Below are positions 27,855-64,000 of a DNA stretch of 64,000 nucleotides, in pieces. The notes beneath the pieces were generated by a model. It ran no database searches. It was not told the DNA's origin and saw only the letters and a list, made by a program, of their open reading frames with translations. Origin of the DNA: Hysterangium stoloniferum (Eukaryota > Basidiomycota > Agaricomycetes > Hysterangiales > Hysterangiaceae). The stretch is taken from NCBI GenBank assembly GCA_015178975.1, contig WHVD01000012.1, positions 682,001 through 746,000 on the forward strand, written 5' to 3'. A program made the position numbers and the translations under genes. Numbering within the stretch: the stretch's first letter is position 1; each line of letters opens with the position of its first letter.

Positions 27855-29388
27855 ATGACTGCAAATCCATCTCATCCGAAAGACTTTGGCATTCTAAAGA
27901 TAGCAGATCCTAGACAATCAAATATCGAGTGTGTATAATAATACCTCGGTTCACCATTTGAAGTCCTCATACCTTTTGACGGTAGCATCGTTTTCATCCA
28001 CGGCTTAGATGGACATCGGGTAAAATCATATACACACACACGCAGCGGCGAAATGTGGCTTCGCAACTTTTTGCCTTCTGATTTACGCCAGGCGAGGATC
28101 TTGAGTTTTGGCTACGACGGCTATACTGAACACAGGAATCAATTTTCGGAAGGGACCCTTAGTGATCACGGCAGAGGCTTATTAAAAAAACTCGCACAGG
28201 CAAGAATTGATAAGGAAGTGAGCGACGATCGCAATCTTGCATGTTTTTATTGGTATTGAGTTACCCCATAAATAGGACCAACCTATCATTTTCGTCGCAC
28301 ATAATGTTGGAGGGATCATATTGAAATCCGTAAAACTATCTCGACCCCATCACGCATTATAGTGCTAATATTTTTAACAGGCCCTGGTTTTTGCATACTC
28401 GTGCCACAGGAAGCGTCACAGCCATTTCCGAAGAATTTATGATGCCACTAAAGGTATCATATATCTCGGGACCCCTCATAAGGATACACCACACAATTAC
28501 CTGGATGTTGTGCTCCACTCAGGAACGAGCGAGCTTGCGGAGAAGATAAAGGAGCGTTCAGAGAAGAGCTACGAGCTTGCCGAGAAGTTAAGGGCGCATT
28601 CAGAGAAGAACGAGAAACTTTCCAAAATTTTAAAGGAGTATTCAGAGAGGGATGACAAGGATGCCAAGGATTTAAAGGAGCATTCAGAGAGGAGCGGCAG
28701 GCGTAGGCTTGCCAAGAAATTAAAGGAGCATTCAGAACAGAGCGGTGGACTTGCCAAGAATCTGGAGGGGCATTCGGAGAGGAAGGACGGGCTTGCCAAA
28801 AATTTGAAGGACCATTCAAAGACCAACATGGAGGTTGCCAAGATATTAAAGAGGCATTCAGAAAAAAGTGTCAAGCTTGCCCAAATTTTAAGGAAGCATT
28901 CAAACAAGAACACGGAGCTTGCAAAGAATTTAGAGGAGCATTCAGGGAGGAACAATGAGCTTAAGAAGAATTTAGAGCGGCATTCAGAGAGGAACGCCAA
29001 GCTCGCCCACGATTTAGATAGACAATTAAAGAGGAGCGACAAGCTTACCAAGAATTTAAATGGGAGTTCGGGGTGGTTTCAGCGGCTATTTGCGCAGGAG
29101 CGTCCCATCCTTGCCCAGCAAAAAATCAGCATAGAGTACTTTTACGAAGCCACCGCCGAAATAAAATCGAGCTCGGTATGTGGCAACTTTACATCCACTA
29201 GTCTACCGGTATCTTTAATTTATAGTCGGTGTCTTTAGTCAAGGGAAAATGCCAACACCAAGGAGAGTGTGTTGATGAGGAATCACGAAATGCTGACGAA
29301 ATTCGAGTCGTCATCAGAGAACGACTACCAAGTCATAAAGGCAACGTTACAGATAATGGCACGTCCCAGACAATCCCGTCCAGAATGA
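27855..29388 (+). CDS. SesB-like hydrolase-fold protein with 13 in-frame 14-residue repeats (copy C)
   Basis: Exons: 27855-27928, 27986-28217, 28276-28329, 28381-29175, 29239-29388; introns 51-63 bp. The spliced frame is open (1,305 nt, 434 residues). Order: short N-terminus, IVFIHGLDGHR, FLPSDLRQARILSFGYDG, the elbow at about residue 112, GIIYLGTPHKD (about 146-155), the repeat block (171-354), then ISIEYFYEATAEIKS and a C-terminal exon with NHEMLTKF (candidate His) and SENDYQVIKATL. Exon positions match copies A and B. The elbow reads AHNVGG where the family has HSxGG, so the nucleophile Ser is Asn and catalysis is doubtful. The repeats enlarge the helical segment between GTPH and YFYE, which is short in A and B. 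Confidence 0.88.
28531..29082 (+). repeat. Thirteen 42-bp coding repeats (one unit 48 bp)
   Basis: Each unit encodes 14 residues of the pattern x-L-A-K-x-L-K-E-H-S-E-R-x-x. The fourth unit has two extra codons (Arg-Arg). Leucines recur at positions 2 and 6, and units are highly charged, which predicts a long continuous helix (two heptads per unit), perhaps a coiled coil. Units are similar at the DNA level but none are identical; frame is kept throughout. Confidence 0.92.
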
Positions 29389-38354: not shown

Positions 38355-38466
38355 AAGGGCGGCAATGAGTTAAGGGCGTCAATGAAGATTAAGGGCGTCA
38401 ACGAGGATTAAGGGCGGCAATGAGGATTAAGGGCGGCAATGAGGATTAAGGGCGGCAATGAGGATA
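38355..38466. repeat. Minisatellite, 19-bp unit, about 6 copies
   Basis: Unit AAGGGCGGCAATGAGGATT; the last three copies are nearly perfect and earlier copies have GGCGTC variants. Followed by a purine-rich stretch shared with block W. Confidence 0.85.
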
Positions 38467-59737: not shown

Positions 59738-62223
59738 TTAAAGCTTACCATATTGAACAAAAGTTACAAACAATTTTCCACCAGCTGAAACGAGTTGGTC
59801 ATTATCGGCATCAACAAGGGATATACAGTGATGTTGTAGGTTGCAGCCAATAATAGCTTTACGAAAGCAATCTTTGAGAACATGGGTGAGGGAAAGGTGT
59901 TGACTTGCGTGTCGAGGGCACACACCATGAGCTGCTAGCTTAACGAGCAAGTCAACAACGTGTGTTTGAGTTTGTAAATATGTGTCGTCCAACAGTGCAA
60001 CAATGGCGGGAATGAAACCCGCAATGGCCGCTCGAAATTCGGCTGTGGTCAAATGTCACCCGGATTCCCATCCCACTGTCACACACCGCACCTTGCTTTG
60101 AAACCTTCCACAGTACCGATACGGCGTTCGATCGAACGTCAGAGTCAGAGTGCTTCAACAGTGCAACAATGTCGGGAATGACACCTGTAATGGCCACTCG
60201 AAATTCGGCTGTGGTCAAATGTCAGCTGGATTCCCATCCCATTGTCACACACTGCACCTTGCTCTGAAACATTCTCCAGGACAGATACTGCGCGTGATAG
60301 AACGCGCCAGTCAGAGTGCCTCAACAGTGCAACAATGTCGGGAATGACACCCGCAATGGCTGCTCGAAATTCAGCTGTGGTCAAATGTCAGCTGGGTTCC
60401 CATCCCATTGTCATATACCGCACTTTGCTCTGAAACATTCCCCAGGACCGATACTGCGCTTGATCGAACGTGCCAGACAGAGTGCTTCAACAATGCAACG
60501 ATGTCAGGAATGACACCCGCAATGGCGGCTCGAAATTCGGCTATGGTCAAATATCAGCTGGATTCCCATCCCATTGTCACACACAGCACCTTGCTCTGAA
60601 ACCTTCCCCAGGACCGATACCGCACTTGATCGAACGTCAGAGTCAGAGTCCTTCAACAGTGCAAGAATGTCGGGAATGACACCCGCAATGGCCGCTCGAA
60701 ATTCAGCTGTGGTCAAATCTCAGCTGGATCATCCCATTGTCACACACCGCACCTTGCTCTGAAACCTTCCCCAGGACCGATATTGCGCTTGATCGAACGT
60801 CAGATCGAGAGTCCTTCAACAGTACAAGAATGTCGGGAATGATACCCGAAATGGCGGCTCGAAATTCGGCTGTGGTCAAATCTCAGCTGGATTCCTATCC
60901 TATTGTCACACAGCGCACCTTCCTTTGAAACACGCCCCAGGACAAATACTGCGCTTGATCGAACGTCAAATTGAGAATCCTTCAACAGTGTAAGAATGTC
61001 GGGAATGATGCCCGAAATGGCGGCCCGAAATTCGGCTGCGGTCCAGTGTCAGCTGGATTCCTATCCTATTGTCACACAGCGCACCTTCCTCTGAAACACG
61101 CCCCAGGACAGATACTGCACTTGATCGAACGTCAAATTGAGAATCCTTCAACAGTGCAAGAATGTCGGGAATGATAGCCGAAATGGCCGCTCGAAATTCG
61201 GCTGTGGTCCAATGTCAGCTGGATTCCTATCCTATTGTTACACACCGCACCTTGCTCTGAAACATTCCACAGGGCCGATACTGCCCTTGATCGAACGTCA
61301 GAGTCAGAGTCCTTCAACAGTGCAATAATGTCGGGAATAACACCCGCAATGGCGACTCGAAATTCGGCTGTGGTCAATGTCAGCTGGATTCCCATCCCAT
61401 TGTCACACATCACACCTTGCTGTAAAACCTTCCCCAGGGCCGATACTGCGCTTGATCGGACGTCAGAGTCAGAGTGCTTCAACAGTGCAACAATGTCGGG
61501 AATGACACCCGCAATGGCGCCTCGAAATTCGGCTGTGGTCAAATCTCAGCTGGATTCCTATCCCATTGCCACATACCGCACCTTGCTCTGAAACATGCCA
61601 CAGGACCGATACTGCGCTTGATCGAACGTCAGACCGAGAGTCCTTCAACAGTGCAGGAATGTCGGGAATGATACCCGAAGTGGCGCCTCGAAATTCGGCT
61701 GTGGTCAAATGTCAGCTGGATTGCTATCCTATTGTCACACATCGCACCTTGTTCTGAAACAATCCACAGGGCCGATACTGTGTTTGATCGAACGTCAGAG
61801 TCCGAGTCCTTCAGCAGTGCAACAATGTCGGGAATGACACCAGCAATGGCGGCTCGAAATTCGGCTGTGGTCAAATCTCAGCTGGATTCCCATCACATTG
61901 TCCCATTGTCACACACCGCACCTTGCTCTGAAAGCATCCCCAGGGCCGATACTGCGCTTGATCGAACGTCAGAGTCAGAGTGCTTCAACAGTGCAAGAAT
62001 GTCGGGAATGACACCCGCAATGGCCGCTCGAAATTCGGCTGTGATGAAATGTCAGCTGGATTCCCATCCCATTGTCATACACCGCACCTTGCTCTGAAGC
62101 CTTTCCCAGGACCGATACTGCGCTTGATCGAACGTCAGAGTCAGAGTCCTTTAACAGTGTAGCAACGTCGGGAATGGCAGCGGTAATGGCGGTTCCAAAT
62201 GCGTCTGCAAGTCCATGAATCAT
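59738..62223 (-). CDS. HEAT/ARM-repeat protein HEAT-1: 14 repeats, one per exon, 596 residues
   Basis: Start ATG 62223 (Met-Ile-His-Gly-Leu-Ala, then repeat 1). Exon 1 is 62223-62088; thirteen further exons of exactly 117 nt each follow (the last is 60042-59926), then a terminal exon 59871-59738. Every repeat exon begins in phase 1 and encodes 39 residues of the type AEFRAAIAGVIPDIVALLKD followed by SDSDVRSSAVSALGKVSEQ, two amphipathic helices as in HEAT/armadillo solenoids. Introns (about 46-58 bp) start GTGCGG-like and end CACAG, with CTGAC before the acceptor. The spliced frame totals 1,791 nt. Repeat 14 is diverged, and the C-terminal exon (DCFRKAIIGCNLQHH...) is not a repeat. A scaffold or recognition role is likely for such solenoids; the partner is unknown. 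Confidence 0.88.
59926..62204 (-). repeat. Tandem array of 14 exon-intron units, period 166 bp
   Basis: Unit boundaries judged from the CTCGAAATTCGG motif at 60031, 60197, 60363, 60529, 60695, 60858, 61024, 61190, 61356, 61521, 61687, 61853, 62027 and (altered) 62193. Spacing is 166 bp except -3, -1 and +8 steps, each explained by an indel inside the intron. Confidence 0.93.
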
Positions 62224-62396
62224 GACAGTTTACGAGGAATTGATGCACGGACCAAACATATGCATAGCAGAGACCACCATTAACAGAGCGAACTTTCCTT
62301 TTCGAGCTCTAAGGTCGAATCTGGATAAGGGAAGGTAAAAATTCCGCGCTTTAAAGTGGGATGGGAATTAGCGAATGAATAATAGATGACCTGTCT
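62224..62396. promoter_or_regulatory. 173-bp gap between HEAT-2 stop and HEAT-1 start
   Basis: The only non-coding DNA between the two head-to-tail genes; it must hold the HEAT-2 terminator and the HEAT-1 promoter unless the two are co-transcribed. No clear TATA or terminator signal was picked out. Confidence 0.45.
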
Positions 62397-64000
62397 TCAC
62401 ACACATATAATTGTTACGCATTGAATGATCTTGATGTCTTCATGACGCGAACTACTATCAGTACTATACAAGAGATCCACAGTTGACGACAGAGGACGGG
62501 TAGATAATCCGGAGAGGTCTCGCATATCGGGCAAACTTGCTAGATTACCGCAATATCGATCTGAATGAGAGGGAAAAAAGAGTGAATGGGAATACTTTGA
62601 AGTTGGGTTGAAAGTGACTCACGTAGCGTTGGTTGTCTTTTCTCCGACAATCCTACAGCCGCACGTATTTCAGCCCTGACGAAAGGGAGAAACTCCTCTG
62701 TGGAGACTTCAGACAGATCCTTCGACAAGATTTCTTGGATCACCTTTTTCTGAAAATGTCGCCAGGGCTGATGCTGCGCTTGATCGAACGTTAGAGTGAG
62801 AATCCTTCAACAGTGCAACAATGTCGGGAATGACACCCGAAATGGCGGCTCGAAATCCGGCTGTGGTCAAATGTCAGCTGGATTCCCATCCCATTGTCAC
62901 ACACCGCACCTTGCTCTGAAACCTCCCCCAGGATCGATACTGCCCTTGATCGAACGGGCCAGTCAGAGTCCTTCAACAGTGCAACAATGTCGTAGATGAC
63001 ACCCGCAATGGCGACTCGAAATTCGGCTGTGGTCAAACTTCAGCTGGATTCCTATCTCATTGTCACACATCGCACCTTGCTTTGAAACCTTCCCCAGGGC
63101 CGATACTGCGCTTGATCGAACGTCAGAGTCAGAATCCTTCAACAGTGCAACAATGTTGGGAATGACACCCGCAATGGCCGCTCGAAATTCGGCTGTGGTC
63201 AAATGTCAGCTGGATTCCCATTCCCATCGCCCCATTGTCACACACCGCACCTTGCTCTGAAACCTTCCCCAGGGCTGATACCGAGCTTGATCGAACGCGC
63301 GGGACAGAGTGCTTCAACAGTGCAACAATGTCGGGAACGACACCCGCAATGGTCGCTCGAAATTCGGCTGTGGTCAAATGTCAGCTGGATTCACATCCCA
63401 TTGTCACACATCGTACCTTGCTCTGAAACATTCCCCAGGACTGATACTGCGCTTGATCGAACGCGCCAGTCAGAGTGCTTCAACAGTGCAACAATGTCGG
63501 GAATGACACCCGTAATGGCCGCTCGAAATTCGGCTGTGGTCAAATGTCAGCTGGATTCCTATCCCATTGTCACACCGTACCTTGCTCTGAAATCTTCCCC
63601 AGGGCCGATACTGCGCTTGATCTAACGCGCCAGTTATAGTCCTTCAACAGTGCAATAATGTCGGGAATGACACCAGCCATGGCGGCTCGAAATTCGGCTG
63701 TAGTCAAATGTCGGCTGGATTCCCATCTCATTGTCACACACCGCACCTTGCTCTGAAACCTTCCCCAGGGCCGATACTGCACTTGATCGAACGCGCCAGT
63801 TAGAGTCCTTCAACAGTGCAATAATGTCGGGAATGACACCAGCAAAGGCGGCTCGGAATTCAGCTGTGGTCAAATGTCAGCTGGATTCCCATCCCATTGT
63901 CACACCGCACCTTGCTCTGAAACCTTCCCCAGGGCCAATACTGAGCTTGATCGAACGCGCGGGACAAAGTGCTTCAACAGTGCAACAATGTCGGGAATGA
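62397..64000 (-). CDS. HEAT/ARM-repeat protein HEAT-2, C-terminal part (8 repeats visible)
   Basis: The gene continues beyond the window. Seven complete 117-nt repeat exons (unit motif at 62849, 63015, 63181, 63356, 63522, 63686, 63852) and part of an eighth, separated by introns of about 47-58 bp with the same splice signals and phase as HEAT-1. After the last repeat (ending SALATFSEK), exon 62697-62623 encodes EEFLPFVRAEIRAAVGLSEK and a few more residues. Intron 62622-62561 follows, and the terminal exon is 62560-62397 (stop 62397-62399). Its C-terminus differs from HEAT-1 although the repeats are nearly interchangeable. N-terminus unseen, so extra domains may lie upstream. Confidence 0.82.
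62744..64000 (-). repeat. Second tandem array of 166-bp exon-intron units
   Basis: Same unit as 59,926-62,204. Spacing 166 bp except +9 and -2 steps, both within introns. Runs off the window end. Confidence 0.93.

Follow-up and report, generated by a model that had tools for sequence, protein, structure and literature searches.

A family of predicted DUF6535-HEAT genes with one repeat per symmetric exon in Hysterangium stoloniferum and its possible role in recognition

A stretch of 64,000 nucleotides from Hysterangium stoloniferum (contig WHVD01000012.1; C24:682001-746000 of a 111 Mb assembly in 554 contigs), called the window here, carries a tandem array of HEAT repeats on its minus strand. 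Comparison with paralogues indicates that the array is the 3′ two thirds of a single gene of a large family in this fungus, a truffle-like mushroom which is placed in the Hysterangiales, Phallomycetidae, and is named as ectomycorrhizal (PMC7550596). Nearly every repeat of the predicted protein is encoded by its own symmetric exon, and a few positions in each repeat carry an excess of amino-acid change. The gene family is real and well supported. A recognition role is its most likely reading and is held with moderate confidence: it is fairly probable that these genes encode a membrane-anchored, variable-repeat recognition family outside the NLRs, built of a DUF6535 anchor, a HEAT solenoid in two blocks and a C-terminal domain.

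A tandem array with a period of 166 bp (24.2 copies, 59990-64000) was detected with Tandem Repeats Finder. The window contains 21 complete exons of 117 nt in one stop-free frame, each with an AG acceptor, a GT donor and phase 1 on both sides; the introns between them are 46-58 nt long, typically about 49 nt, and all of phase 1. Each exon encodes a HEAT repeat of 39 residues, with the consensus EFRAAIAGVIPDIVALLKDSDSDVRSSAVSALGKVSEQ plus a residue formed across the splice site. Four joined units matched PF02985 (HEAT) in 4 stretches with an E value of 3.4e-26. A preliminary description of the window had proposed one repeat per symmetric phase-1 exon, with all length changes (-3, -2, -1, +8, +9) in the introns. 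Both proposals hold: the units are spaced by 166 nt with variants of 163, 164, 165, 174 and 175, each difference lies in an intron, and the comparative splice model has the one-repeat-per-symmetric-exon arrangement of the brown-algal ROCO and NB-TPR type. The exception is the first HEAT repeat, beyond the window, whose exon includes upstream sequence too.

For comparison, 20 stretches of 10 kb were taken from the same genome, mostly at strong HEAT matches. Arrays were present in 19 of them, so that the loci, picked from the strongest matches, total 567 units, 566 of full length. The start codon and the N- and C-terminal splice sites of the window gene were set by aligning these paralogues. The joined model has 34 exons in a single frame, 33 introns (32 of phase 1 and one of phase 0) and 1,744 residues, in the order DUF6535, array I of 11 HEAT repeats, a linker of two exons, array II with 14 more, and a C-terminal domain. 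Amino-acid identity among the 25 HEAT units averages 0.705. The gene is predicted to start outside the window at C24:748455 (window coordinate 66455), where all 11 loci alignable at this point have an ATG, and its stop codon lies at 59408-59406; the feature had earlier been ended at 59738 and divided into two adjacent genes, and the comparative evidence corrects both points.

All exons lie on the minus strand. Outside the window, in window numbering, the DUF6535 exon lies at 64800-66063; HEAT1 to HEAT3 follow beyond the window on C24. The HEAT4 exon (63911-64027 as a whole) is clipped by the window edge to 63911-64000 in the paralogue-based model. Array I continues with HEAT5 (63747-63863), HEAT6 (63581-63697), HEAT7 (63417-63533), HEAT8 (63251-63367), HEAT9 (63076-63192) and HEAT10 (62910-63026), and ends with HEAT11 (62744-62860). 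Array II opens with HEAT12 (62088-62204) and runs through HEAT13 (61922-62038), HEAT14 (61748-61864), HEAT15 (61582-61698), HEAT16 (61416-61532), HEAT17 (61251-61367), HEAT18 (61085-61201), HEAT19 (60919-61035), HEAT20 (60753-60869), HEAT21 (60590-60706), HEAT22 (60424-60540), HEAT23 (60258-60374) and HEAT24 (60092-60208) to HEAT25 (59926-60042), a diverged terminal repeat. A last unit of the HEAT25 type is present in 18 of the 19 loci; the 19th array extends past the stretch analysed. The C-terminal domain is encoded by exons C1 (59749-59871), C2 (59588-59701) and C3 (59406-59542, including the stop codon).

The interval between the two arrays (62204 to 62744, about 540 bp) contains the linker exons M1 (62623-62697, 75 nt) and M2 (62405-62539, 135 nt), both of phase 1-1. 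A spacer of similar length is found in each of the 19 loci, in 20 copies in all as L028 has two, with unit-to-unit distances of 609-664. HEAT11 has its GT donor in all 20 copies, and M1 and M2 are both stop-free and a multiple of three in length in 20 of 20. The M1 donor is GT in 14 of 20; M2 has AG in 18 of 20 and GT in all, and the intron that leads from M2 to array II (62205-62404, about 200 nt) ends in AG in all 20. In four of the six copies lacking the M1 donor the intron can be read through in frame; in L011 and L013 it cannot. Gaps within M1 and M2 are of 3, 6, 9, 18 or 24 nt, and those within the introns flanking M2 mostly of 1 or 2 nt. The public H. stoloniferum protein models P0048, P0049 and P0058, inspected by eye, each span the linker within one protein. 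P0058 joins M1 to M2 at the predicted site, and P0049 has the same repeat-to-repeat junction as the genomic locus L031, whose deduced stretches (on C140) equal parts of it. The linker is also crossed by P0168 of Mycena albidolilacea (1,679 residues), in which DUF6535, a HEAT block, a linker, a second HEAT block and a homologous C-terminus (28% identity to the window gene over 114 residues, E 1e-7) lie in one chain.

The earlier division would have array I end in the spacer and a HEAT-only gene begin at the ATG beside 62204, in front of HEAT12. By eye, the window copy does have this in-frame ATG, and reading on past HEAT11 reaches a stop. Yet such an ATG is present in only 12 of 20 copies whereas the AG acceptor at the same place is present in 20, and the open linker exons and the proteins that cross them argue in the same direction. 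Two adjacent genes are very improbable, and we prefer a single gene because the linker is conserved across 20 copies from 19 loci.

The M1-M2 interval (window 62540-62622) is 84 nt long, open and without a GT donor in L022, L023, L024 and L027; in L009 (the window gene), L012, L016, L017, L020 and L021 it has a GT donor and a length that breaks the frame. To judge from these copies, it looks like ongoing intronisation or intron loss. An extra small exon between M2 and array II was considered and left out of the model, as by eye L023 and L027 have lost its acceptor and the frame hits a stop. P0058 nevertheless translates some sequence in this place (by eye), and the 62205-62404 intron may contain a further small exon in some copies.

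Constraint on the units was assessed over the 566 full-length copies. The donor is GT in 557 and GC in 8, and the acceptor is AG in 556. Stop codons were observed in 9 units, compared with 193 expected (99% range 160-223) when the same numbers of substitutions are placed randomly; the units were detected by translated search, which biases the count toward intact ones. The length differs from 49 nt in 154 of 522 introns, and at six places the spacing suggests that one unit was missed. Within the introns the GT and AG are nearly fixed across units, and hardly any site varies less than the T and A of a CTGAC element (divergence 0.014 and 0.005; interior mean 0.082), a pattern indicative of splicing constraint. 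In the 12 of the 19 loci whose stretch holds the complete DUF6535 exon, this exon is open over 419 codons in every case and its ratio of nonsynonymous to synonymous divergence (pN/pS) is 0.45, a sign of purifying selection. A noncoding satellite or dead repeat array with a nucleosome-like period would account for the 166-bp period and for the tandem homogenisation described below. Such an array would not be expected to show so few stops, length changes that are almost all intronic, nearly fixed splice and branch signals, and a junction to an exon open for 419 codons. This account is the least credible of those considered, and a satellite or pseudogene was rejected on the stop-codon simulation. 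The selection on the protein that had been proposed for the array is borne out by the same figures.

Diversification within the repeats was studied in clean units. Removal of 16 units with a stop, an altered splice site or a shifted frame, and of 18 terminal diverged units (34 in all), retained 532 of the 566. The diversity and pN/pS figures are from the 361 clean units with 49-nt introns, the other 171 being left out. Mean nucleotide diversity is higher in exons (0.183) than in introns (0.137) and is 0.174, 0.175 and 0.198 at codon positions 1, 2 and 3. In 6,000 random unit pairs, pS was 0.198, pN 0.177 and intron divergence 0.146. The amino-acid changes are concentrated at few codons: pN is 0.535 at codon 23, 0.477 at 22, 0.368 at 8, 0.352 at 31, 0.323 at 27 and 0.287 at 21, compared with 0.027 at codon 10 and 0.022 at 16. 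At codons 22-23, pN exceeds the mean pS 2.4-2.7-fold and the intron divergence 3.3-3.7-fold. Bootstrapping over loci gave pN/pS of 1.6-2.2 and pN/intron of 2.0-3.4 for codons 21, 22, 23, 27 and 34, and pN/pS of 0.26-0.39 for ten core codons; these codon sets were selected after seeing the data, and a split-half estimate is fairer. When the top five codons were chosen from one part of the loci, their pN/pS in the other part averaged 2.0 (20 splits, minimum 1.8). In 18 of the 19 loci, position 23 is one of the top five by variability. Counting, locus bootstrap and split halves all point to diversifying selection at a few positions per repeat. Pairs matched for intron identity were rejected as a neutral yardstick, because selecting similar introns lowers intron divergence. 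Exon-intron linkage and mutual information between positions gave mixed correlations, partly locus effects, from which no claim is drawn.

The best solved-structure matches to the repeats are mostly alphaRep artificial proteins. In these, positions 18, 19, 22, 23, 26 and 30 are randomised, and alphaRep A3 and its binder make contact via concave faces that include randomised positions (PMC3754942). The randomised positions align to 22, 23, 26, 27, 30 and 34 of the HEAT unit studied here. These six are more variable than random sets of positions both in Hysterangium (p 0.002) and in 15 units of Mycena P0168 (p 0.0009); within positions 20-37 the corresponding values are p 0.022 and p 0.015. The natural variable sites partly match the library positions of alphaRep, and the agreement is an independent check on both.

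Variable sites could also arise in the same single gene if it encoded an ordinary HEAT scaffold, its variable positions being relaxed surface sites and its homogenisation a passive outcome of tandem repetition. Exposed helix faces are expected to vary, pN/pS overall is about 0.9, and P0001, a DUF6535-HEAT relative from Mycena venus, carries few and diverged repeats. Relaxed constraint, however, cannot lift pN beyond neutral yardsticks, and codons 22 and 23 exceed them; the top codons recur in split halves, and positions 22, 23 and 21 are also in the top four variable positions of Mycena P0168 (15 scored units). We regard the ordinary scaffold as unlikely, while giving it appreciable weight, and favour a variable-repeat recognition protein.

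The exon upstream of the array, on the same strand, belongs to DUF6535 (PF20153; 118.4 bits against a cut-off of 23.9, E 4e-34). By Kyte-Doolittle hydropathy only, residues 87-253 of the protein contain four hydrophobic segments, and the linker has a weaker one (1065-1083); the DUF6535 domain probably anchors the protein in a membrane. Another identity considered for the gene was that of a fungal NLR (STAND) receptor bearing HEAT repeats. NACHT-HEAT proteins do occur in fungi (PMC12258605), and many fungal NLRs have internally similar repeats with sites under diversifying selection (PMC4986451). A search of the genome for NACHT gave no match in the gene, the nearest listed being at C24:766542 and below the family cut-off. 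Pfam scanning of the two N-terminal open reading frames found DUF6535 and no nucleotide-binding family, with DUF6535 in place of a ROC-COR or NB-ARC core; the scan covered these frames and not the joined full-length protein, and NB-ARC was not searched genome-wide. In eight fungal homologues no NACHT or NB-ARC was among the Pfam matches listed. An NLR identity is very improbable on these grounds, and membership of the gene in the NLRs was rejected on the NACHT search together with the N-terminal DUF6535.

The ankyrin-named P0074 of Mycena venus has many closely similar HEAT-type units (AIPLVMELLKDSDSYVRRAAIECLSGLG and similar, by eye). To judge from this protein, HEAT arrays of mutually similar units seem to be found on other scaffolds as well.

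The units are homogenised within loci. Compared pairwise at the DNA level, the exons of the window's 21 units have an average identity of 0.83, or 0.85 when the terminal unit is set aside; for its fourteen introns of 49 nt the average is 0.88. The term near-identical, applied to these exons in the preliminary description, is too strong for such values and for an amino-acid identity of 0.705; its suggestion of conserved introns with amplification or conversion is supported, the introns being less diverse than the exons. Mean exon identity is 0.828 within and 0.815 between loci, and the nearest unit lies in the same locus for 241 of 532 units, against 5.5% by chance. Two or three neighbouring units that match another such block with at least 97% identity occur 11 times in 6 of the 19 loci, four of them three-unit blocks; errors of assembly in tandem sequence could hide or create units. 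Since the search between loci gave no such block of at least three units, two-unit blocks not being sought there, recent exchange is shown within loci only, exchange between loci being older or rare. High internal conservation in the sense of Dyrka 2014 (over 85% identity over at least 100 residues, the criterion as read in this analysis) was found in none of 174 three-unit block pairs of the window gene, the best reaching 0.838.

The size of the family was estimated with four queries of the genome. A query with HEAT, for which 150 of 1,735 candidates were scored, gave at least 233 matches; spacer DNA gave at least 40 places, with 40 of 59 candidates scored. The linker protein gave 79 matches from 103 candidates, or about 61 distinct M2 places, a few of which, on short contigs, may be assembly duplicates. 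For DUF6535 there were 75 matching stretches, a few or more of which are fragments of a single gene. With 60 of these 75 used for pairing (the weakest 15 left out), a DUF6535 match lies 2.2-6.5 kb upstream on the same strand for 29 of the 40 spacer places. The family in H. stoloniferum is estimated at about 60 linker copies.

Some loci depart from the common plan. L028 (C212:667000-676999) has two linkers and three HEAT arrays, of which the stretch covers 11, 16 and 12 units, and a 4.2-kb internal segment of it is duplicated at 85% identity; an array-plus-linker block can double in this way. In L023 (C17:219500-229499) several units carry stops and the N- and C-terminal flanks could not be aligned to other copies, so that it looks like a decaying member. 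In L029 and L031 some units are linked by an in-frame translated intron remnant, and P0049, from the L031 locus, includes such sequence (by eye); arrays of this kind are probably hard to annotate.

The following mechanism is proposed. With nearly every repeat being one symmetric phase-1 exon, flanked by short conserved introns, repeats could be gained, lost, copied and in principle skipped with the frame intact. Tandem exchange within arrays, acting over an older stock of units common to the loci, would keep exons and introns alike, and selection would favour new residues at positions 8, 21-23, 27 and 31 of each repeat. Most of the favoured positions would lie on the second helix and the preceding turn, by analogy the binding side in alphaRep proteins. 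The likeliest job of the protein would be membrane-located recognition of variable protein ligands, be they nonself, microbial or of symbiotic partners. The comparisons document the structure of the gene, constraint on the protein, the size and homogenisation of the family, the excess of amino-acid change at particular sites and the homologues. Membrane insertion, the binding face, the recognition role, expression and any alternative splicing are what we infer from the genomic sequence and its comparisons.

Several results weigh against this interpretation. DUF6535 has no known function and is hardly named in the literature searched, and a search of the PDB with its alignment gave only weak matches to ACE/ACE2 and designed proteins (best E 0.006), judged to be due to chance. 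No DUF6535 match was found upstream at 11 of the 40 spacer places. For the repeat as a whole pN/pS is below 1; splicing constraint may have made the intron yardstick too low, and the counts are not independent because units exchange sequence. The agreement with alphaRep is partial: positions 26 and 30 are not notably variable in Hysterangium (entropy ranks 28 and 22 of 38), position 34 has high entropy with a pN only 1.08 times pS and is invariant in the scored Mycena units, and positions 8 and 31 are variable without being alphaRep positions. The final linker intron has no single evident branch site (by eye). Damaged-looking copies occur as well, namely the linkers of L011 and L013, which lack the donor and are out of frame, the units of L023 with stops, and a 10-nt gap in the first exon of L020.

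A few hundred nucleotides 5′ of the ATG in the window gene seem, by eye, unlike the upstream sequence shared by, for example, L017, L018, L019, L021 and L026; its promoter may differ from those of its paralogues. Elsewhere in the window, imperfect 42-bp tandem repeats at 28530-29058 perhaps encode a charged helical repeat, and a 19-bp minisatellite of 5.9 copies lies at 38355-38465.

Nonself recognition in basidiomycetes is poorly understood, and its models come from ascomycetes (PMC8229728). The work on fungal recognition that was found deals mainly with NLRs and het genes. A repeat family that is large, diversifies rapidly, is probably linked to a membrane and has no recognised nucleotide-binding domain would be a new place to look and would give DUF6535 a testable role. 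In that case one-repeat-per-exon arrays, known from brown algae, would have evolved independently in fungi, and the general idea that a need for fast change in binding surfaces favours symmetric repeat exons would become testable. A wider proposal, put forward tentatively and with more doubt than belief, is that besides NLRs, and unrelated to them, a second class of variable recognition proteins exists in Agaricomycetes: DUF6535 membrane anchors that carry HEAT solenoids of exchangeable exons, their specificity rewritten by germline gain, loss and copying of exons and perhaps by skipping in RNA. If so, about 60 genes would let one mycelium show many binding surfaces, as a natural equivalent of an engineered library of repeat-protein binders.

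Among known systems, the closest in domain order are the Agaricomycete DUF6535-HEAT proteins Mycena albidolilacea P0168 and Mycena venus P0001. P0168, compared at the protein level, shares the two HEAT blocks, the linker and the C-terminus, whereas P0001 differs in its few diverged repeats; the large family size is shown here for Hysterangium only. The alphaRep proteins share variable sites that partly match their randomised positions, but they are engineered and have a shorter unit, and the likeness is one of use and not of ancestry. In fungal NLRs (Podospora HNWD genes, HET-D/E/R, and ANK and TPR types), concerted evolution of repeats, change of unit number and diversifying positions on the binding face are described (PMC4986451, PMC12222747). 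The analogy with Podospora HET-D/E/R drawn in the preliminary description stands for the mode of repeat evolution and fails for the protein: unlike the NLRs of high internal conservation, the window gene has DUF6535 and no NACHT match, each repeat has its own exon, and identity is below the 85% over 100 residues. The NACHT-ANK genes of Tuber melanosporum, with microexons of 3 bp (Iotti 2012, cited in PMC4986451 and PMC9815663), are alike in diversifying a repeat domain through exon structure in a fungus; there the microexons are codon-sized, here the exons hold whole repeats, and the other domains differ.

One-LRR-per-exon (leucine-rich repeat) ROCO genes and NB-ARC-TPR genes of brown algae were reportedly described by Zambounis in 2012 and Teng in 2023. 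No account of one-HEAT-per-exon arrays in fungi was found in a literature search that missed most subscription journals. These brown-algal genes carry one repeat per symmetric exon (72 bp and phase 2 in ROCO), undergo exon shuffling, have four positively selected positions in each repeat and are proposed immune receptors; alternative splicing in them rests on transcripts (Teng 2024, PMC11378527). The Hysterangium genes share with them one repeat per symmetric exon and a few diversifying positions in each repeat; they differ in lineage and repeat type, in the use of phase 1, and in having DUF6535 in place of a GTPase or NB-ARC core. The design is that of the brown-algal one-repeat-per-exon arrays, placed on a new scaffold.

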